Shown: positions 53,224-64,000 of the stretch, piece after piece
Position numbering within the stretch: the stretch's first letter is position 1
How the letters are laid out: every line of letters begins with the position of its first letter
Source: Nitrospirota bacterium
Lineage (GTDB): Bacteria; Nitrospirota; Nitrospiria; SBBL01; JAADHI01
Length of the DNA stretch: 64,000 nt
Direction: 5' to 3'
Assembly (NCBI GenBank): GCA_029261135.1
Contig: JAJDBX010000018.1
Span: forward strand, 1-64,000
Translations under genes and position numbers: made by a program
Notes under the pieces: generated by a model
Told to the model about the DNA's origin: nothing
The model's input: the letters and a program-made list of their open reading frames with translations, nothing else
Database searches by the model: none

Positions 53224-54504
53224 ATGGCCTTAGATAAAAAGGCATTTAAGATTGGCATCATTGGCTTGGGCTATGTCGGCCTTCCTTTGGCTGTTGCCTT
53301 CGGACGACAATTTGAAACAAAGGGTTTTGATATTGACAAAGAACGTGTTGAAGCACTGAAACGAGGCATCGATACGACCTTGGAGGTTTCAGAAGAAGGA
53401 CTCCAATCCGTAGAACACCTTTCATACACGACTGATCTCGATGAGATCAAAGCCTGTAATTTTTTTATTGTGACCGTGCCAACACCCATCGATGTTTACA
53501 AACGGCCGGATCTGAGGGCGATTGAACAATCTTCAGAAGCGGTCGGCAGTATTTTGAAAAAAGGGGATATTGTTGTTTATGAGTCCACGGTCTACCCCGG
53601 GGTGACAGAAGAGGTTTGCGTCCCGATCTTAGAAAAAGAATCAGGCCTCGTTTTTAACCAAGAATTTTTTGTGGGATATTCCCCTGAACGGATCAACCCC
53701 GGTGATAAAAAACATACGGTGACCGATATTCTAAAAGTGGTTTCGGGTTCAAACGCAGAAACCCTAGAAACGGTTGATGCATTATACGGGACAGTCATTA
53801 CCGCCGGAACGCACCGTGCCGAATCCATCCGTGTGGCAGAAGCAGCCAAGGTGATTGAAAACACGCAGCGCGATGTCAACATTGCCCTGGTCAATGAATT
53901 GTCGCTGATCTTTAATCGTCTTGGCATTGATACCCAAGCGGTTCTGAGAGCGGCGGGGACCAAATGGAATTTTTTGCCTTTTACGCCAGGACTCGTGGGG
54001 GGACATTGTATCGGAGTCGACCCCTATTATTTGACGCATAAAGCCCAGGAAGTCGGTTATCACCCCGAAGTGATTCTTGCGGGAAGACGAATTAACGACA
54101 ATATGGGGGGATACGTTGCCGGAGAAGTGGTCAAGCTGATGACCAAAAAAAAGGTTCAGGTGGGGGGAAGTCATATCCTCGTCCTCGGCATTACCTTTAA
54201 AGAAAATTGCCCTGATATCCGAAATACGCGCGTGATTGATATTGTTGAAGAATTTAAGGGATACGGGGTGGATGTGGATGTGTATGACCCCTGGGCAAAT
54301 ACAGAAGAGGTCAGGCGAGAGTACGGCATCACATTGGTCCAACCGCCGAAGGAACACTATTATGATGCCATTGTTCTGGCCGTGGCTCACAATGAGTTTA
54401 AGGCTTGGACGCAAGCAGATTTAACAAAATATACCAAACCTGCCCACGTCATTTATGATGTCAAAAATTTATTTGATCCACGCTGGGTCGACGGTAGACT
54501 GTAA
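53224..54504 (+). CDS. UDP-N-acetylhexosamine dehydrogenase (WbpA/TviB-like)
   Basis: NAD-dependent oxidation of a UDP-HexNAc to the uronic acid for polysaccharide synthesis. The 426-residue UDP-glucose/GDP-mannose dehydrogenase fold has [45 protein letters not shown], and the catalytic Cys in [19 protein letters not shown] near residue 265. The last motif form favours the VipA/TviB/WbpA branch over UDP-glucose dehydrogenase. Paired 17 bases upstream of an epimerase. Confidence 0.9.
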
Positions 54505-54521
54505 AGATTAGGAGTGAATGA

Positions 54522-55532
54522 ATGAAATACTTGGTGACCGGCGCTGCGGGTTTTATTGGTTTTCATGTGGCGCAACGACTTTTGGCCGCGGGTGAAACCG
54601 TGGTCGGCTTAGATAGCCTAAGTGATTATTACGATGTGACACTCAAATTAAGCCGATTGAAACAACTGGAGGAAAGTCCTCAGTTCCATTTTGTAAAACG
54701 TGATCTCGCAGATCGTGAGGGCATCGACCACCTATTCCGAGAAAATGAATTTGACCGCGTCATCCACTTGGCGGCACAGGCAGGCGTACGTTACAGCATC
54801 GAAAATCCCCATGTTTACATCGACAGCAACTTGGTCGGCACCTGCCATATCCTTGAAGGCTGCCGTGCGACGCATGTGCCTCATCTCGTTTATGCCTCTT
54901 CCAGTTCAGTCTATGGTTCAAATACGCGCATGCCGTTTTCTGTGCATCACAATGTAGATCACCCTGTTTCGCTTTATGCGGCCACGAAAAAAGCCAATGA
55001 ATTGATGGCCCACACCTATTCCCATCTTTACCGGATTCCAACGACCGGTCTGCGTTTTTTTACGGTCTACGGCCCTTGGGGACGACCCGATATGGCCCTT
55101 TTTCTTTTCACGAAGGCTATCCTCGCCGGAGAGCCGATCAATGTGTTTAATTATGGGAAAATGCGCCGAGACTTTACCTACATTGATGACATTGTTGAAG
55201 GCATCCTTCGTGTCACAAAAAACATCCCCAATCCCAACCCAGACTGGACAGGAGATGAACCCGATCCGGCCACCAGTGCAGCACCCTACAAAATTTACAA
55301 TATCGGGAACAACAACCCTGTGGAGTTGATGGCGATGATCGATGCGCTGGAAAATGCGCTCGGGAAAAAAGCAGAAAGAAATCTCCAGCCGATTCAGCCG
55401 GGGGATGTGCCCGCAACCTATGCTGATGTCGATGATCTTATTAAAGATGTGGGTTTTAAACCCGACACCCCGATCGAAGTGGGCATTGAAAAGTTTGTCG
55501 CCTGGTACCGCGCGTATTATAAAGTCGACTGA
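54522..55532 (+). CDS. UDP-uronate 4-epimerase (extended SDR)
   Basis: 336-residue extended short-chain dehydrogenase/reductase: [19 protein letters not shown] with GxxGxxG near residues 7-13, [13 protein letters not shown] typical of UDP-glucuronate 4-epimerases (Cap1J/Gae), [20 protein letters not shown], the catalytic S-Y-K set in [11 protein letters not shown] and [13 protein letters not shown], and [17 protein letters not shown]. It probably interconverts the gluco and galacto forms of the uronic acid made by the upstream dehydrogenase or of UDP-glucuronate. Confidence 0.9.
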
Positions 55533-55533
55533 G

Positions 55534-55956
55534 CTATTTTATAACGCGGATCTCTTCCTCATTTATCTTTTCTTTTACGATTCGGAAGCCCCGGATATGG
55601 GGCTTGGTTCTATCTTCCAATGAAATAATTAAATAAAGCACGTCTGGGTAAAAGGCGAGGCGGACATCTGTGGGCGAAGGATAAGCCTCAGAATGGGTAT
55701 GGGAATGGTAAATTGCCATCAGTTCTGTCCCCGTTTCCCGCATTTGTTTAAAGGCAGCGATTTGTTCCTTCGGCGCCATAACGTAGCGTAACGCCCTGTT
55801 CTCCGGAACCTTCAGATCAATGATGGAAGGGTCATCCGAGGGGAGATTCATAATTTTGTAAATTTCAGAGGCGACGCCGTCTTTTCCCGCAAGTAATCCA
55901 CAGCATTCATCGGGGGCATCCGCTTTTGCGTGTGTCATCATGGCATCTGAGACCAT
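55534..55956 (-). CDS. M67-family (JAMM/MPN+) metalloprotease
   Basis: 140 residues with a complete JAMM motif: E17 (PDECCGLLAG), then HxH at H84-H86, seven residues, S94, two residues, D97. These bind zinc and activate water in isopeptidase-type proteases. Bacterial stand-alone members process ubiquitin-like sulfur carriers (MoaD/ThiS/CysO type), but no such gene is nearby. ATG 55956 has no Shine-Dalgarno. The open frame upstream adds seven or eight family-like residues beginning at ATC codons 55977-55980 with AAGGA upstream, so the start is uncertain. Confidence 0.9.
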   Translation of the reverse strand: MVSDAMMTHAKADAPDECCGLLAGKDGVASEIYKIMNLPSDDPSIIDLKVPENRALRYVMAPKEQIAAFKQMRETGTELMAIYHSHTHSEAYPSPTDVRLAFYPDVLYLIISLEDRTKPHIRGFRIVKEKINEEEIRVIK

Positions 55957-56138
55957 TCGGGTGATTTGAAACGCGATGATTGAGTCCTTCGTTTAGAGAA
56001 TGCGGTTTAGTTCATCAATCCTGAAAATAAAACCCAAATTATTTTTGGCCTTAGGGTGAAAATATATCACACTCTTGCCTCAGGCCTAAAGGTTCATCGC
56101 ATTGACGAAATCGAGCTCTTCCAGATAAGCTAAATATA

Positions 56139-56873
56139 ATGCAAGAGCGAGAAAAACCAAAGGTCATTGATTATTCCATCATCGTCCCGGCATACAATGA
56201 AGAAAAGTGGTTGCCACGCTCGCTCCAAGCCATCCAATCTGCGATGAACAACATTGACCTTTGTGGCGAAATTATTGTCACAGACAACAACTCGACCGAC
56301 CAAAGTGCCGATGTGGCGAAGCAATTTGGGGCGAGGGTTGTGTTCGAAGCCAAAAATCAAATTTCACGTGCACGCAATGCAGGGGCTCGGCAGTCTAAGG
56401 GGATCTACCTTGTTTTTGTCGATGCAGACACACTCATTTCTGAAAGCTTGCTGAAGTCTGCGCTTTCCAACCTCCAAGCAGGAAAAATCTGTGGTGGCGG
56501 TGCACTTGTTTCCTTCTATAAAAATACAGGCAACACGGCAAATAAAATCATTCAGATTTGGGTTTGGCTCTCCTCTCGCTTGCAGATCGCCTCAGGAAGT
56601 TTTGTCTATTGTTTGCGTGAAGCTTTTGAAGAAGTGGGCGGTTTTAGCGAATCACTTTATGCCGGGGAAGAAGTACGACTTTCCTGGTCTCTCAAAAAAT
56701 GGGGGGAAAAACACCGCCAATCATTCAAAATAATCCCTGATGATCCTGTCTTCACTTCTGCACGGAAACTAGCGCATCCGATGCGCATGGTATTGACACT
56801 CCTGGTTTGTACGGTCTTTCCATTTTCAATCTATTTTAAATCACTGTGTGGATATTGGTACAAGCGGGATTAA
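56139..56873 (+). CDS. Family 2 glycosyltransferase
   Basis: 244-residue GT-A fold enzyme: YSIIVPAYNEEKWLPRSLQA, IIVTDNNSTDQSADVA, the RARNAGA motif, the DxD-type LVFVDADTLI near residue 95, and GGFSESLYAGEEV. One hydrophobic C-terminal segment (about 215-235) may anchor it to the membrane. It resembles the rSAM-associated/TIGR04283-like glycosyltransferases more than polymer synthases. The acceptor is unknown; the neighbouring nucleotide-sugar genes and outer-membrane locus suggest envelope glycans or glycosylation. Confidence 0.88.
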   Translation: MQEREKPKVIDYSIIVPAYNEEKWLPRSLQAIQSAMNNIDLCGEIIVTDNNSTDQSADVAKQFGARVVFEAKNQISRARNAGARQSKGIYLVFVDADTLISESLLKSALSNLQAGKICGGGALVSFYKNTGNTANKIIQIWVWLSSRLQIASGSFVYCLREAFEEVGGFSESLYAGEEVRLSWSLKKWGEKHRQSFKIIPDDPVFTSARKLAHPMRMVLTLLVCTVFPFSIYFKSLCGYWYKRD

Positions 56874-56890: not shown

Positions 56891-58444
56891 TCAATACGCT
56901 GCTGTGATCATGATCCCGAAGATATTCCGATCATAATCGTAAATCGGAATATTGGAGCTATTCTTTTGAAAAAGGTATTGGCTTGAGATCGTCATCTGTT
57001 CTGTCAGGTTTCTTGAGAGTACTGCGATCAAAAGGAAATCATCGTCTTCCCGGTTTGTGCTGGCTGTGCTTTGTGAATTTAAATGATCATAATCACGAAG
57101 AAGCATCTCCAGCTCAAGTGAGCCGGTTAAATTTTCTAAAAAAGGATGTTGAAGCCCCAGCTTAAATCCATGGCTGTCGTAACTCCAGTCATCTTCTGAA
57201 ATACTGGAACCGGCCTCCTCTATTTTATAATGGTATCCTGCGTAGGCATTCCCTTTTCCTCGCAATAATACGATATGGGTCAAACCCACTTGATGGGTAT
57301 CGACATCTCGATCAGAATTACTTGGAAACAGGGCTTGAATATTCTCAAAATCTTTTTCCCCAAAAACATAAGCCAACTCGGTAAAATTATCGACTGAATG
57401 TTTTAACAGTAATTTGGGACCAAGCTGCTGGCCCATTAAATATCCATCCCCACCCAGCGTGACATATTGAAATTCATAAACAAGGTTCAATTCATTTTGA
57501 CCCATTGGGTGGCGACCGCTCAAAACAAGGTGATGATCTTGAATATTGAAATCATTCAGACTGTTCTGTGAATGAAGGTTTTGATAAAAACGATATTCCA
57601 GATTTCCCTTCCAGTTATCATGTTTAAGCCATTGGACATCTGTTTTTATATAGACGATCCCGAGGGTATCTTCCTTTTTTGTCATCCCGGATGTCGATAA
57701 GAAAGTTCCACCTGGATCAAGTACCACGTTATCGTCATATTGAACACCAAAGGATGCGCTTAAGTGCCACCGTTTATTGACATCTGAATGTTGTTCAATT
57801 TTTTTGATAAATTCACGCGCAGATTCGGCCAGATCTCCTTGAGGTGAAAGATCAAGTACACGCTGAAACTTGGTTTTAGCCGAATCAGTGGCTCCCTCTT
57901 GAAAGAAGGAAATCCCGGCCTGAAAATGAATCGGCGCCGCAAGCTGAGGATCAAGTTGTGCTGCTTTTTTAAGTTTTGCTTCGCTCACTTGAAGGTTTCC
58001 ATTCCGTCGCCAGATTAAACCCTGATAGTAATGGACACGTGCGCGCTCAGGATCAATTTTCTCGACAATTGAAAAAGCTTTGAGCGCTTTCTGATCTTCC
58101 CGAACCTGAAAATAGAGGATCCCTAAGTCAAAACGGGCTGGCATAAAAGTGCGGTCAAGAGAAAGCGCTTTTAATAAATATTTTTCGGCTTCTTCATCGC
58201 GATTCGCACGTGCATGAGTGACCCCAAGATAATAATGGGCCTCTACTCCCTTTGGATCAAGCGACAAAGCGTCTTTAAAACGTTTCAGTGCCACGCCAAG
58301 ATCGTTCTGATTCAAGCGAGCAATGCCCGCAGAAAGAGAGTCATGGTAGTCTTGATTACTTTCCCCCATTGATGATGAAGGCACACTGAAAATAGAGAGC
58401 ATGATGAGGATTAATATTTGTGTCAGACGGACTTTCTGTAACAT
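56891..58444 (-). CDS. TPR plus outer-membrane beta-barrel protein
   Basis: About 517 residues. Start ATG 58444 is set by TTAGGAG; the frame opens earlier. A signal peptide (about 1-27) is followed by five or six TPR units (about 35-215; AHYYLGVTHARANRDEEAEK is one), then a C-terminal half of alternating strands (WHLSASFGVQYDDNVVLDPG onward, about 230-517) ending in Tyr, as in outer-membrane barrels. Periplasmic TPR plus barrel is the design of the PgaA/BcsC polysaccharide porins and of Slam lipoprotein exporters. I cannot assign it to either. It lies just downstream of the giant lipoprotein gene on the same strand. Confidence 0.82.
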   Translation of the reverse strand: MLQKVRLTQILILIMLSIFSVPSSSMGESNQDYHDSLSAGIARLNQNDLGVALKRFKDALSLDPKGVEAHYYLGVTHARANRDEEAEKYLLKALSLDRTFMPARFDLGILYFQVREDQKALKAFSIVEKIDPERARVHYYQGLIWRRNGNLQVSEAKLKKAAQLDPQLAAPIHFQAGISFFQEGATDSAKTKFQRVLDLSPQGDLAESAREFIKKIEQHSDVNKRWHLSASFGVQYDDNVVLDPGGTFLSTSGMTKKEDTLGIVYIKTDVQWLKHDNWKGNLEYRFYQNLHSQNSLNDFNIQDHHLVLSGRHPMGQNELNLVYEFQYVTLGGDGYLMGQQLGPKLLLKHSVDNFTELAYVFGEKDFENIQALFPSNSDRDVDTHQVGLTHIVLLRGKGNAYAGYHYKIEEAGSSISEDDWSYDSHGFKLGLQHPFLENLTGSLELEMLLRDYDHLNSQSTASTNREDDDFLLIAVLSRNLTEQMTISSQYLFQKNSSNIPIYDYDRNIFGIMITAAY

Positions 58445-58571
58445 TTTTACTCCTAAGTGAATACGATCCAAAAAGCAATTGAATTATTGAAGGCCGACTG
58501 CTGAAGCGCAATAAACAAAGGCCATTTCGTTATGATTTTTCTCCGGAACATCGCTATTCCTGAAAATAAAA

Positions 58572-61500
58572 TTAAGGTGCGGCACGGATATTAATGCGAT
58601 CTAAGGCGTAACTCTGGGCGGAGCTTCCTCCGAGTTCAAGAGAAAAACGGGCCAAATCTGAAGCCGCCGTATTTTTGAATGGAAGTGGAAATGTCGCATC
58701 AATCGATTGCCCGTCAATCAATATCTGTTCAATTTCCTTCCTGTCCATATTCACAGTGACTTCAAAAGACTGAAAAAGACCGAAGCCCCAGGGAGGAAGG
58801 CCAGGGGCACCACTGTCATTCAAATCAAGCATATTGTTGTTGGGGCGATAGGAGATATTCATCAAAATCAGGCCCGAACTGTCTCGGATCACCGGGCTCG
58901 AAAAAAAGATGCTGCGCGACATCACCGCCGAATCCCATCGCACTACATAGCGACCGGTTTTCGGCGGGGTGCCAGCGACCTGGGCACGCAGAGCAAGCCC
59001 CCCGCTACCCGGAACTTGATCCAGGGCAAGATATTGTTGTCCTGTTGTTTGGTTTAACTGGACACGAATCGTGCCCGAGGCTTCATTCAGGATCAAAAGA
59101 TCGCCGACGGGGTCACCCGGCGGATCCAGGTTCGGCGGTTTTAGAACATCATCCGAATTGAAATCAACATTTAAGAACAGGGTTCGCACCAGGTTTGCTG
59201 TACAGCTTTTGTCCCTATCCATCACCACCGTGGTGAGTGAGGATGTGCCGGAGCAATCCCCTGTCCAATTCACAAAAGCCCAACCCGCCGAGATGGCGGT
59301 GCGCAAAGTAACCGATGTGCCATTCGGATACACTTCAACACAATCTGTCCCGCAAGAAATTCCACTGGGAACAGAAATAACTGTGCCACCACCTGCAAGG
59401 CCCACAGTCAGAGTGGAATTATTCGAAATAAAGGTTGCTGTACAGGCTTTATCCGCATTCATTAACACAGAACCTGTCGCACATTCCCTCGCGTCGGGCC
59501 CGGTCCAAGCACTGAAACTCGCACCGATATTCGGTGTTGCACTGACAGTCGCGGTCTCTCCGAAATTGTAAATGCCAAAACCGGTCACGAAACCCGGCCC
59601 CACCGGGCTCAAGGTTAGGGTATGTTGATTCAAAGTAAAGTTAGCGGTACAGCTTTTGTCATTATCCATCAAGACGGAACTGGTCGTACATTCTCTTGCA
59701 TCCGGGCCTGTCCAGCCCGAAAAGCTTGATCCGCTTGCAGGGGTGGCGGTGATGGTCACGGTTGTTCCGAAGTTGTAGGTTCCCGCACCACTGACTGAAC
59801 CACTCCCGTTCCCTGCGGTGCCTAAGCTTAAGGTTTGTCTGTTTAGGGTAAAGTTAGCGGTACAGCTTTTGTCATTATTCATCAAGACGGAACTGGTCGT
59901 ACATTCTCTTGCATCCGGGCCTGTCCAGCCCGAAAAGCTTGATCCGCTTGCAGGGGTGGCGGTGATGGTCACGGTTGTTCCGAAGTTGTAGGTTCCCGCA
60001 CCACTGACTGAACCGCTACCGTTCCCTGCGGTGCCTAAGCTCAAGGTATGGCTGTTTAGGGTAAAGTTGGCGGTACAGCTTTTGTCGTTATTCATCAAGA
60101 CGGAATTTCCCGCACATTCTCTTGCATCGGGGCCTGTCCAAGATGTAAAGCTTGATCCGCTTGCAGGAGTGGCGGTGATGGTCACGGTCGTTCCGAAGTT
60201 GTATGTTCCCGCACCACTGACTGAACCGCTCCCGTTCCCTGCGGTGCCTAAGCTCAAGGTTTGACTATTCAGTCTAAAGTTTGCGGTACAGCTTTTGTCA
60301 TTATTCATCAAGACGGAAGCGGAATTGGAATCGGAATTTCCCGCACATTCGCTTGCATCCGGGCCTGTCCAGCCTGTGAAGGTTGATCCACTTGCAGGGC
60401 TGGCGGAAACATTCACCTGTGTCCCTGGATTGAAACAATCTCCGCCTAGGGCTGTACCTGACCCGTTACCGGCTGTATCCAGTGTTAGTGTGAGACAAGA
60501 CTCGTCATCTTCATTCGTAAGATTAATATCTATAGGTTGTGCCTCATTGTAGTTGGGGTCTTCGCTTAATGCTGGATCGAATTTCACTGAATAAGCCTGA
60601 TCTCCGTCATCATCAAAATCATCTTCGCCGGTAATGGTCACTGTCTGTGCTGTATTCCAATTTAATGGGGTAAAGGTCAGACTGTTTGTTGAAAGCTTGC
60701 CTTCTGTGGTATCGCTGGAGAAAAAGCTGATCGTGACATCAGAACTCGGTTGTGTGCCAAGTACGACGGTAAAAGTCGTTGTTCCTCCCGCTTCACTTGT
60801 GTTTAGGTTCAAAGACGGCGTCACTTGAACCCCGGTATTACATTGAGCGAAGGGATACAGAGAGGCATTGGTGTTATTAACGGATGCCCCTGTCTCACCA
60901 AAAGCGATATCAGTCCCATTACCCAGAGAAGCAACCTCAGGCGGGTCATGATCCCATTGGTTGTTCTGAGCAAAAATTGACTCGGAAGTGCCCATAAAAA
61001 GATCAACGTCGAAATTACAACTTAAGATATTATTGCCTTCACTGCGAAGCGCGCCTCCACCAAGGTCGGGCAATGCAGATTCAATCGCTGAAATACCCAT
61101 GCGATTTCCCTCGATAAGATTGCCCTGAATTAATGGTGTGGCATTGCCCAATATTTGAATGCCGGTATCATTGTCCCTAAAGATATTGTCAATAATGAGG
61201 GGTGTGGCCGTGCCTTGGACTTGGATCGCGGTCTCAAAACCGACAAGTTCAAAATCGCCGAATTTGTTTCCAGAAATCACCGGAGTGCTGTCTCCATCGA
61301 CTAAAATGGCTGGATTGATGCAGGCTTGCGTAAAACAAAAGATTTGATGAAAAGTGTTGTCACTGATTAGAAAAGAAGCCTCATTACTGTGAATAATCCT
61401 GTTAAATGTGCCATGATCTTGAATCATAAACCCGTTGAGTGAAGCCCCTTCAGCACCCAGTATCCCCGTTCCGGAGTCTGTTCCCTCAGATGATCTCGGG

Positions 61501-62471
61501 TTGATAAAATCTAAAATAGTTGAAGCCCCATTAATACTTTGACCTTGCAGCGTGACCCCTGCTTTCAAAACAAGCGGGCTTGTTTCGCTCCCTTCAATGA
61601 GATCAAAAGGGTAAGTCCCGGGTGCAACCAGTATGGTATCCCCTGATTGTGCTAAGGCGATTCCTCGCGCCAAGGTTTTGCAGGGCGCATCCGTTGTGCC
61701 GCAGTTGTCGGCATCTATTCCAATTTCGCGATTGACAAAACGAAGGTTCGCGATGCTGAGGTCGGCGATATCAAAATAGAGATCAGGGCTGGAAAGACTG
61801 GTCACTTTCACCTCTACTGATTCTGATAATGGAATAAGCTTCGGTGATTTATATTCTGCAGTGCTTGGTCCTGTCGGCGTAATGGTTCCGTTTGTCAAAT
61901 CACCGCCAGGAATGTCATTGACAAACCATTCAATATTGGAATCACGCAAGCCTGGATACACCGTGGCTGTAAAAATTTCGACGATGTTTGTTGGAAGAGT
62001 GGCATTATTGGGATTAATTGTGATGGGTTTTGCAAGCGTGATCTGAAGATTCACTGGCTCAATATTTTCTAGATCGGTTAGGGCGCTTCCAAAGAGAACA
62101 ACCTTGCCTTTTTCATCAAAGATATCCACTCGAAAGAGGCGATCCGATCCAAGAGGGACATTGAGCAGGAGGTTTACTGATGATTCTCCCGGAGGAACAC
62201 TCACTGTTTCTGTGGCCAATTCGATGTTATTGACACTGGTGACGGTCACTTGGATTGACTGCACTGTATTCAAGGCTTCTGTTGCAAAGACTTTTTGCTT
62301 TTGATTCAGGTCATTTTTCTGCGGAGATAAGAGCGTGATCCCAACGGGAGTTGTCCTCTCCGCTCCGGCATTTCCTTGTGGAGTCTCAGGCCCTTGGCCA
62401 CATGCGCTCAAAAAAAGAAGCAGCAAAAGAGAAATCGGACGAATTATGAGGTAAGGCACTAACTTTTTCAT
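58572..62471 (-). CDS. Giant lipoprotein: beta-helix, Calx-beta-like and InlB-type repeats
   Basis: 1299 residues from ATG 62471 (AAGGA upstream). The lipobox is FLSAC (lipidated Cys24, Gly at +2). Parts in order: two Ig-like regions (about 35-225), a right-handed beta-helix of the DUF1565/NosD type (about 235-520; TILVAPGTYPFD, NNILSCNFDVDLF), a Calx-beta-like unit (about 530-630; TEGKLSTNSLTF, EDDFDDDGDQAYSV), then seven InlB-like B repeats (about 640-1095) of about 71 residues carrying Cys pairs, and a C-terminal laminin-G-like or LPS-binding-type beta domain. An adhesin or surface coat role is likely. No enzyme active site is evident. Confidence 0.85.
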   Translation of the reverse strand: MKKLVPYLIIRPISLLLLLFLSACGQGPETPQGNAGAERTTPVGITLLSPQKNDLNQKQKVFATEALNTVQSIQVTVTSVNNIELATETVSVPPGESSVNLLLNVPLGSDRLFRVDIFDEKGKVVLFGSALTDLENIEPVNLQITLAKPITINPNNATLPTNIVEIFTATVYPGLRDSNIEWFVNDIPGGDLTNGTITPTGPSTAEYKSPKLIPLSESVEVKVTSLSSPDLYFDIADLSIANLRFVNREIGIDADNCGTTDAPCKTLARGIALAQSGDTILVAPGTYPFDLIEGSETSPLVLKAGVTLQGQSINGASTILDFINPRSSEGTDSGTGILGAEGASLNGFMIQDHGTFNRIIHSNEASFLISDNTFHQIFCFTQACINPAILVDGDSTPVISGNKFGDFELVGFETAIQVQGTATPLIIDNIFRDNDTGIQILGNATPLIQGNLIEGNRMGISAIESALPDLGGGALRSEGNNILSCNFDVDLFMGTSESIFAQNNQWDHDPPEVASLGNGTDIAFGETGASVNNTNASLYPFAQCNTGVQVTPSLNLNTSEAGGTTTFTVVLGTQPSSDVTISFFSSDTTEGKLSTNSLTFTPLNWNTAQTVTITGEDDFDDDGDQAYSVKFDPALSEDPNYNEAQPIDINLTNEDDESCLTLTLDTAGNGSGTALGGDCFNPGTQVNVSASPASGSTFTGWTGPDASECAGNSDSNSASVLMNNDKSCTANFRLNSQTLSLGTAGNGSGSVSGAGTYNFGTTVTITATPASGSSFTSWTGPDARECAGNSVLMNNDKSCTANFTLNSHTLSLGTAGNGSGSVSGAGTYNFGTTVTITATPASGSSFSGWTGPDARECTTSSVLMNNDKSCTANFTLNRQTLSLGTAGNGSGSVSGAGTYNFGTTVTITATPASGSSFSGWTGPDARECTTSSVLMDNDKSCTANFTLNQHTLTLSPVGPGFVTGFGIYNFGETATVSATPNIGASFSAWTGPDARECATGSVLMNADKACTATFISNNSTLTVGLAGGGTVISVPSGISCGTDCVEVYPNGTSVTLRTAISAGWAFVNWTGDCSGTSSLTTVVMDRDKSCTANLVRTLFLNVDFNSDDVLKPPNLDPPGDPVGDLLILNEASGTIRVQLNQTTGQQYLALDQVPGSGGLALRAQVAGTPPKTGRYVVRWDSAVMSRSIFFSSPVIRDSSGLILMNISYRPNNNMLDLNDSGAPGLPPWGFGLFQSFEVTVNMDRKEIEQILIDGQSIDATFPLPFKNTAASDLARFSLELGGSSAQSYALDRINIRAAP
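59641..60492 (-). repeat. Tandem 213-bp in-frame repeats in the giant lipoprotein gene
   Basis: Near-identical units start at 59641, 59854, 60067 and 60280, exactly 213 bases (71 codons) apart. The first three differ at only a few positions; the fourth is more diverged and longer inside. Each encodes one InlB-type repeat with GTYNFGTTVTITATPASGSS and SVLMNNDKSCTANFTLN. The near identity implies recent duplication or gene conversion and makes copy number prone to change. Confidence 0.93.
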
Positions 62472-62532
62472 GATGTTCCTTATAATCAAATAAATAGAAT
62501 TTACGAACTAAAAAGTCTTTTCTCTGTTCATT

Positions 62533-63798
62533 CTACTCCGGTAGGTCGATATTAATTGTGACCGGAACAGTTGTCGTTCCACCTGCTGCGGGGGCGGAGA
62601 TGGGGGGCTGGGAAATATTCGGTTTTATGACCGAAGCCGAAATCTGAAAAACAGGCAAGCCTGGCGTCATGGGCCGTATTCCGAAGGCATAGTCTGGCCC
62701 ATGAGCCATCATTTCTGCAGCAGAAATAATCTCATCGATGGACTGCGATAAAAGAGGGGTTTCTAAAAGTGCTGTTCTTGCTAATTCAAAATGAGGATCT
62801 TCTTCAAGCGCAAGAATAAATTCCCGAGAAGCTTCGCGATAATCTCCTTGGTCGAAATGCGTGAGTCCTTCCGAAAAATGTTGGAATGCTTTTAGATTTT
62901 TTGTGTGGATTTTCTCCACCTCAGTCCGGGTTTGACTATCCAGATTCTCCGGGCAATATCCCATTCCGCACAGGAGTTTAAAAACAAGAGTTTTTTCCAA
63001 GGTATAAAAATGGGACAGTGCTCCAGAGGCCTCAGCGACCGAGAGCTCTTTCGCATCTTCCGTTTTGGTGACTAAAGCATTGAGACGCATCGTTTCGTGA
63101 TCGACATCCACCAGGCTTCCTGTCGTAATTTTTGCTGCGCCCACGAGTCTCCCGATTCGAGGAGCGTTCTTGGCGTCCACAATCCCGGATCTTGTTAAGC
63201 TGAGTTCATTTAATATGGCTTGGATTTGGATGCGTTCGACCACCGTGAAGCCTTTGATCTTTGAGAGATCCGTGATGATCATTGCGGCAAGTCCCTTTGA
63301 AAGTGGGGCATAAGATATCGATCCTTTATTGAGAAAGGGATAAACAGCGATTGCTTTTGGATCCACTCTCTCTGATAGATTTTTTTCCCGTTTAATTTGA
63401 TCTTGTGCGACCCGTTTTGCTTCTTTTTGCAAAAGCAGGGTGAGATATCTTGTTATTTTTCGGGCGCCTTCACTCCCTTTTTCAAGACGAACATAAGACT
63501 GCCAGGCCTGAATAGCCTGTAGGGATTCGCCCAAACGAAGATGACTCAAGCCAAGATAAAGCGACTGCAGAGAACTGCTTTCTTCTGGGTTTCCTCGTAA
63601 TGATGAAATAAGGCCTTTGTATCGGCCTGAATGGTAGAGTGCTTTGATCTCTTTGTCGTTCACTTCCTGAGAGGCCCATCCCATCGGGGGGGCAAGGAAG
63701 AAAACCAGGACAAATGCCGTGACCAGAGAAAGAAGACATCCCCGATGAGACGGATGGTTCTTGAGCAATTGTTTAGAAAATAATTTTTGATGAAGCAT
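62533..63798 (-). CDS. Exported CsgG-like protein with C-terminal TPR
   Basis: 421 residues. An N-terminal signal segment (about 20-43, ending GWASQEV) without a proper lipobox; a short TPR-like helical part (about 50-120); a CsgG/curli-secretin-like domain (about 145-290; AIAVYPFLNKGSISYAPLSK, FTVVERIQIQAILNELSLT, RIGRLVGAAKITTGSLV); one clear TPR (about 305-350; FSEGLTHFDQGDYREASREF); and a Pro-rich tail. CsgG is the curli-export pore, but many relatives with this domain are periplasmic or outer-membrane proteins of unknown role. It lies 62 bases upstream of the giant lipoprotein gene, so the two are probably co-transcribed. Confidence 0.82.
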   Translation of the reverse strand: MLHQKLFSKQLLKNHPSHRGCLLSLVTAFVLVFFLAPPMGWASQEVNDKEIKALYHSGRYKGLISSLRGNPEESSSLQSLYLGLSHLRLGESLQAIQAWQSYVRLEKGSEGARKITRYLTLLLQKEAKRVAQDQIKREKNLSERVDPKAIAVYPFLNKGSISYAPLSKGLAAMIITDLSKIKGFTVVERIQIQAILNELSLTRSGIVDAKNAPRIGRLVGAAKITTGSLVDVDHETMRLNALVTKTEDAKELSVAEASGALSHFYTLEKTLVFKLLCGMGYCPENLDSQTRTEVEKIHTKNLKAFQHFSEGLTHFDQGDYREASREFILALEEDPHFELARTALLETPLLSQSIDEIISAAEMMAHGPDYAFGIRPMTPGLPVFQISASVIKPNISQPPISAPAAGGTTTVPVTINIDLPE

Positions 63799-63859
63799 GT
63801 GGATCCGAGCTCCTCTTCAACTGAAGTATTTTAGCGTTGGTCCCCTTATAAGATGGGCC

Positions 63860-64000
63860 TTAATTGAGTGACTTTATTAATAAAATATCCATTCGGTCTT
63901 GCGCCTCATAATTTTCTGGATTCATAGAGAGTGCTTTTTGATACGCCTTCAAGGCTTCTTCATTACGGTTTTCTTTTTCTAGTTTTTGGCCCAAGCGGAA
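63860..64000 (-). CDS. TPR protein, 5' part outside the window
   Basis: The last 46 codons of a minus-strand gene that continues past the right edge. They encode FRLGQKLEKENRNEEALKAY, QKALSMNPENYEAQDRMDIL, LIKSLN and a TAA: one TPR unit and a short end. It lies 61 bases upstream of the CsgG-like gene and is probably part of the same operon. Confidence 0.75.
   Translation of the reverse strand, partial: FRLGQKLEKENRNEEALKAYQKALSMNPENYEAQDRMDILLIKSLN

Follow-up and report, generated by a model that had tools for sequence, protein, structure and literature searches.

At one end of the 64,000-nucleotide stretch analysed here (positions 1 to 64,000 of contig JAJDBX010000018.1, Nitrospirota bacterium assembly GCA_029261135.1; hereafter the window), three complete minus-strand genes encode an outer-membrane protein with tetratricopeptide repeats (TPRs) and a barrel, a giant lipoprotein, and a protein joining the N-terminal half of CsgG to TPRs (the CsgG-TPR protein). 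These genes, a candidate system for displaying the lipoprotein on the cell surface, belong to an operon of about 12 genes on one strand; the window ends inside the operon, whose upstream end lies at about contig position 72261. An earlier, sequence-only reading of the window had listed four consecutive minus-strand genes, one of them for a TPR protein at the window edge. Three of these are confirmed as complete, and the supposed TPR protein is actually the tail of a CsgG/LpoB-domain lipoprotein with a C-terminal TPR, of whose gene only the 3' end falls within the window. The features are collected in Table 1.

Table 1. Positions of the features of the operon (window and contig numbering coincide; L007 numbering is that of the analysed locus)
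Feature	Position	Strand	Remarks
Slam-like outer-membrane protein, 517 aa	56891..58444	minus	signal peptide, ~6 TPRs, C-terminal barrel, C-terminal Tyr
Periplasmic TPR region of the barrel protein, residues 28-220	57785..58363	minus	Pfam TPRs; AlphaFold2 (AF2) predicted local distance difference test (pLDDT) ~75-90
Beta-barrel domain of the barrel protein, residues 222-517	56894..57781	minus	read as 14 strands
Giant lipoprotein, 1299 aa from ATG, candidate cargo	58572..62471	minus	lipobox LSAC, Cys24; DUF1565 + Flg_new_2 (Pfam)
N-terminal domain (N-domain) of the lipoprotein, residues 24-159	61995..62402	minus	common to barrel-linked lipoproteins
DUF1565 right-handed beta-helix, residues 251-512	60936..61721	minus	Pfam 107.7 bits
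213-bp direct repeats encoding InlB-type B-repeats	59635..60318	minus	Tandem Repeats Finder period 213, 3.2 copies, 93% matches
Periplasmic CsgG-N/TPR protein, 421 aa, proposed adaptor	62533..63798	minus	signal peptide, CsgG N-terminal half, TPR
C-terminal tail VPVTINIDLPE of the CsgG-TPR protein	62533..62568	minus	common to FecR proteins at related barrels
CsgG/LpoB-domain lipoprotein, 279 aa, C-terminal TPR	63860..64699 of contig (63860..64000 in window)	minus	last 47 codons in window
Thioredoxin/peroxiredoxin-like + TPRs + CsgG-N + FlgT_C protein, 638 aa	L007:8561-10477	co-directional	domain matches
Full-length CsgG preceded by four small exported proteins	L007:13385-16262 (contig 69384-72261)	co-directional	outside window

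The 517-residue barrel protein had been described as a signal-peptide/TPR/barrel protein ending in Tyr, and this description holds. In a Pfam scan SlipAM (PF04575, DUF560) matched residues 226-508 over model positions 1-279 of 288, with 27.4 bits against a cut-off of 22, and TPR_2 reached 83 bits, which together with the hydrophobic N-terminus indicates a signal peptide followed by a periplasmic TPR domain. TPR_Slam stayed under its cut-off (28.6 against 35.2 bits), as did the competing barrel family BBP2_2 (17.7 against 23.7). Among 31 related genomes SlipAM exceeded its cut-off in seven, each time at the homologue of the window barrel gene, and it did so in none of 14 control genomes; at E<=0.01, 18 of 22 barrel homologues carry TPR_Slam and 11 carry SlipAM. 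The family is kept in 33 loci, and the closest named match, the sole named relative found, comes from a Nitrospirae metagenome-assembled genome at 28% identity.

Slam proteins combine TPRs with a 14-stranded barrel, and the PgaA barrel has 16 strands (PMC5449769, PMC8406197). The AF2 model of the window protein, built from two sequences (the protein itself and its counterpart in locus L009), renders the TPRs well and draws 12 barrel strands at low confidence. Hydrophobicity alternation in 22 homologues adds two amphipathic stretches, residues 340-348 and 356-364, where the model is undefined; taken with the 12 modelled strands, they make 14 the best reading of the barrel, not a proven count. 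With SlipAM above its curated cut-off, no PgaA/BcsC match in the Pfam scan and a lipobox protein encoded next door, the Slam-type reading of the barrel, one of the two layouts named in the sequence-only reading, is supported. The same layout of signal peptide, N-terminal TPRs and SlipAM barrel characterises Slam/type 11 secretion (Neisseria Slam1/2, Xenorhabdus NilB, HrpB), where a lipoprotein gene likewise adjoins the barrel gene (PMC5449769, PMC8406197). These matches support the assignment of the barrel as a divergent relative of Slam/DUF560 rather than a member of cluster 1, since the lipoprotein shows no TbpB-type domain.

A TPR region followed by a barrel is also the layout of PgaA/BcsC-type exopolysaccharide porins, in which case the lipoprotein would be a polysaccharide-binding surface protein; a convergent family-2 glycosyltransferase gene at 56139-56873 and genes for a UDP-glucose dehydrogenase and an epimerase at 53224-55532 would suit such a role. 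We nevertheless regard it as very improbable, given that the Pfam scan of the window protein gave no PgaA/BcsC barrel match, that its TPR region has only some six repeats, and that the glycosyltransferase neighbour is retained within the genus but not within the related genus g7.

The adjoining lipoprotein agrees with its earlier description as a 1299-residue protein with a beta-helix and InlB-type repeats: besides its lipobox and DUF1565 helix it carries six InlB-type B-repeats (Pfam Flg_new_2, 240 bits), and there is no Asp at position +2 after the lipobox Cys. The 213-bp repeats in its gene are young. The near-identical copies are prone to copy-number change, and surface variation is possible. 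The NCBIfam family of the Leptospira surface proteins LIC10774/LIC10365 (NF047854) scores 118.5 bits on the lipoprotein, below its cut-off of 380; the likeness resides in the DUF1565 beta-helix region, and the N-domain, the InlB repeats and the C-terminal domain are additional in the window protein.

The N-domain has just one match in its own genome. Its profile gives 32 matches in the loci analysed, nearly all inside barrel operons, and in a search of 21 genomes the matches outside its own genome were nearly confined to such operons. What follows it varies with the locus, namely DUF1565 helices, fn3, InlB repeats or a DUF5122 propeller. Known type 11 cargo, by comparison, has variable N-termini and a common C-terminal beta-barrel; this 8-stranded barrel (TbpBBD) is typical of cluster 1 cargo, and marine cluster 3 cargo mostly lacks it (PMC12282271). 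A shared N-terminal domain with varying C-termini is the reverse of known Slam cargo, and looks new. Alternatively, the lipoprotein genes may simply be orthologous, with the N-domain as the stretch that has changed least. In favour of a functional role, the domain occurs in the giant lipoprotein as well as in a second lipoprotein of relatives, and also next to FecR-type barrels, although recognition is not proven thereby. The chief exception to the linkage between barrel and N-domain is a 1084-residue N-domain protein with Strictosidine-synthase/SGL propeller-like matches (L101:4998-8252), and a weak N-domain match in genome G013 is the second.

The third complete gene had been read as encoding an exported CsgG-like/TPR protein that might serve as an accessory or as a second pore. 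Signal peptide, CsgG N-terminal half and TPR are indeed present, but the membrane hairpin region is not. The Pfam CsgG match (45 bits) covers model positions 11-105 of 210 only, which is the soluble N-terminal half, and stops before the second hairpin, and a profile-profile alignment with the full CsgG (92% probability) leaves out the approximately 25 residues that hold the first. Because the pore-forming region is missing, the CsgG-TPR protein is, as judged from its sequence, not a pore; the accessory role is plausible and the second pore unsupported. A single-sequence AF2 model of the protein was uninformative (mean pLDDT 42).

In other families of the class (L071-L074, L076 and L096), the barrel is followed by a FecR protein of about 300 residues and an N-domain lipoprotein. 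In their main domains these FecR proteins bear no relation to the CsgG-TPR proteins, yet the two kinds share a C-terminal tail of the form V-x-V-x-[VI]-x-[FL]-P. When 378 tails of open reading frames (ORFs) drawn from the loci analysed were ranked with a profile built solely from CsgG-TPR tails, four of the six FecR tails came immediately after the CsgG-TPR proteins, at 9.8-18.4 bits; the best other ORF scored 1.9. FecR tails scoring above 3 were found at 5/7 loci with an N-domain lipoprotein and 0/7 without, a link that amounts to one shared trait rather than seven independent ones, the FecR proteins being homologous. A tree built from 33 barrels gives the CsgG-TPR type a single origin (93% of bootstraps), with N-domain lipoproteins on both sides of it, a pattern with which an exchange of CsgG-TPR and FecR adaptors is consistent. 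This tail, common to the CsgG-TPR proteins and to the FecR proteins that appear to fill their slot at related barrels, looks new.

Barrel homologues at 42-54% identity are found at the levels of genus, family and order; full CsgG orthologues of relatives show 56-76% identity. The order kept is small proteins, CsgG, TPR-trypsin protein, kinase, thioredoxin/TPR/CsgG protein and CsgG lipoprotein, followed by a second lipoprotein of about 700 residues (missing from the window genome), CsgG-TPR protein, giant lipoprotein and barrel. It is repeated in L060, L061, L065 and L067, and also found in L063, L064, L066, L080 and L081, there with contigs split or with genes hidden by antisense ORFs, an effect of the simple ORF caller used. 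Since further genomes of the genus, of the family and of the order share this arrangement, the locus can be taken as authentic and conserved, with a gene order beyond chance; the loss of linkage among relatives that the sequence-only reading had named as refuting it was not seen. Genome G006, from the same family, has neither a barrel homologue nor CsgG, and the system is therefore dispensable. Genome G005 has no full CsgG and no small proteins, retains the rest of the operon, and carries on its contig 50 (L069) a stand-alone trio of CsgG-TPR protein, lipoprotein and barrel. This pattern, together with the co-occurrence of CsgG and small proteins described below, points to at least two separable units, one of CsgG and the small proteins and the other of CsgG-TPR protein, lipoprotein and barrel.

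The gene content, domain matches, conserved order and co-occurrence found at this locus are, on balance, probably those of a Slam/type 11-like display module for the giant lipoprotein, formed by the trio with its periplasmic adaptor and set within a larger envelope operon. We infer that the giant lipoprotein is the cargo. After export by the Sec and Lol steps it would be held in the periplasm with the help of the CsgG-TPR adaptor, received by the periplasmic TPRs of the barrel protein and passed through the barrel of about 14 strands, so as to remain attached by its lipid to the outer face, where the outward-pointing beta-helix and InlB-type repeats would form a layer for adhesion or matrix binding. 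The adaptor would act as a holdase or docking factor, its C-terminal beta-strand tail engaging barrel or cargo by strand addition, and FecR proteins with the same tail would occupy its slot in other families. Cargo handling and threading are here supposed to proceed as in Slam, where the periplasmic holdase Skp keeps the cargo unfolded and no ATP is used for its transit through the barrel (PMC9090332); the need for a holdase leaves room for the adaptor. The kinase, the TPR-trypsin lipoprotein and the further CsgG/LpoB-domain proteins of the operon may link this layer to signalling in the envelope.

Several observations weigh against this assignment. The SlipAM score is low and many barrel homologues fall short of the cut-off; the barrel portion of the AF2 model has a pLDDT <50; and a PDB profile search with the barrel domain alone gave no meaningful match to a solved structure, the whole protein returning TPR proteins only. 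The Pfam scan of the lipoprotein found no TbpB-type C-terminal beta-barrel, unlike in known type 11 cargo (PMC12282271), the N-domain protein of L101 has no barrel nearby, and several barrel homologues at class level adjoin FecR and a CHASE2/guanylate cyclase and have no N-domain lipoprotein. The last arrangement would suit a barrel serving as the outer-membrane part of an envelope-sensing complex, which docks the FecR or CsgG-TPR adaptor and reports to the CHASE2 cyclase or the PEGA kinase, the lipoprotein being routed otherwise; so would the kinase with a transmembrane segment and a PEGA domain in the window operon. We consider such a complex unlikely, given that the stand-alone L069 trio has no adjoining kinase, that SlipAM is a translocon family (PMC5449769) and that 18 of 34 barrel loci have an N-domain lipoprotein after the barrel. 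Sensing and surface display are compatible, not mutually exclusive.

In the display module favoured here, the differences from Slam/type 11 systems are a host outside the Proteobacteria, a cargo unified by its N-terminal instead of its C-terminal domain and devoid of a TbpB-type barrel, and a tailed CsgG-TPR or FecR partner encoded beside the barrel. A fuller arrangement is possible, and we put it forward tentatively: a Slam-like barrel that selects its cargo by the N-domain adjoining the lipid anchor, which would be an unrecognised targeting logic, an exchangeable periplasmic adaptor (CsgG-TPR or FecR) recognised by its common tail, and, in the same operon, a CsgG-type pore for a new family of small exported proteins that may form fibres. 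The Slam-type display route has so far been described in Proteobacteria; if the assignment is true, it reaches beyond them, with a cargo built the opposite way to known Slam cargo and a dedicated adaptor, and the open question of how Slam cargo is recognised becomes directly testable.

Upstream of the gene for the 279-residue lipoprotein lie eight more co-directional genes and then guaA. They encode, in this order, the 638-residue protein, a Ser/Thr kinase, a TPR-trypsin-TPR lipoprotein, a 366-residue CsgG and the small proteins. By sequence reading, the kinase, which has the PEGA domain and a transmembrane segment, retains HRD and DFG, and the trypsin domain retains His, Asp and Ser in the expected motifs. 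The thioredoxin-like domain of the 638-residue protein is predicted to be a binding domain, not an enzyme, since the catalytic cysteine is absent in 11/11 orthologues; it would represent a redox-dead fold under selection. The CsgG-N domains of the 279- and 638-residue proteins match periplasmic domains of the LpoB/TolB-N/FlgT type, with LpoB at 30.9 and 25.3 bits (cut-off 22.3) and FlgT_C below its cut-off. They differ from these in being fused to TPRs or to the cysteine-less thioredoxin-like domain, and in their placement with a barrel and giant lipoproteins. No polysaccharide synthase was found in the operon, and a promoter and terminator scan, whose counts were near the shuffled mean, was not used.

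The true CsgG-type pore of this operon is the 366-residue protein encoded outside the window and paired with the small exported proteins. It matches Pfam CsgG with 108 bits over positions 9-205 of 210, the hairpin region included, and aligns with residues 65-177 of E. coli CsgG (PDB 4uv3) through the first hairpin (E 9e-4). Just upstream lie the four small exported proteins, of 164, 139, 120 and 120 residues, for which no Pfam, NCBIfam or PDB match was found. In three of them the signal peptide is directly followed by a C-x3-C motif, and the C-terminus is beta-like and rich in Ser, Asn and Gly; a profile comparison between the two kinds of small protein was weak (35% probability over 37 columns) and was not taken to prove homology. 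Of 26 genomes, the small-protein profile finds matches in precisely the 13 that have the CsgG orthologue (E <1e-100), always next to CsgG, although the compared genomes are related and these counts are not independent events.

A full-length CsgG match with adjoining small exported proteins resembles the curli and HfaB pores, from which the 366-residue protein differs by the lack of a visible lipobox and by an added C-terminal FlgT/TsaP-like segment. In contrast to curli systems, the window genome yielded no CsgE, CsgF or curlin repeat, and the E. coli control gave a match to each of them. Of the named CsgG relatives in NCBIfam, HfaB comes closest, with a score under its cut-off; in the Caulobacter holdfast this CsgG-like pore is required to place the small amyloid-like and adhesin-like HfaA and HfaD on the surface (PMC6707917), and HfaB with HfaA and HfaD is functionally the closest parallel to the CsgG half of the operon. 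This resemblance, the single co-directional gene run and the joint presence of small proteins and full CsgG in 13/13 cases would also fit an operon devoted entirely to the CsgG-type pore, with the small proteins as curli-like fibre subunits and the barrel and lipoprotein as accessory anchors of that fibre, in the manner of HfaA/HfaD with HfaB. We think this rather improbable: G005 keeps the rest of the operon, plus its second, stand-alone trio, without pore or small proteins, and in other families the set of barrel, FecR and lipoprotein occurs without the pore, so that the modules are separable. If the display reading favoured here is true, the new CsgG-linked small-protein family would be a fresh candidate for secreted fibre subunits in a system lacking CsgE and CsgF.

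No account of this combination of genes turned up in searches of the literature; the sequence-only reading, too, had not recognised it as a described system. The Manganitrophus genome paper was considered as a possible description of the locus and set aside, since CsgG, curli and lipoproteins do not appear in its text. The interval 53224-56873, which adjoins the locus, encodes a UDP-glucose dehydrogenase, an epimerase, a JAB-domain protein and a glycosyltransferase. Among the related barrels, L075, L078, L095 and L099, all from other families, combine TPR-barrels with FecR proteins (some of 700 residues) and CHASE2-guanylate cyclase genes, with no N-domain lipoprotein, and in L092 a TPR-CHAT protein adjoins the barrel.

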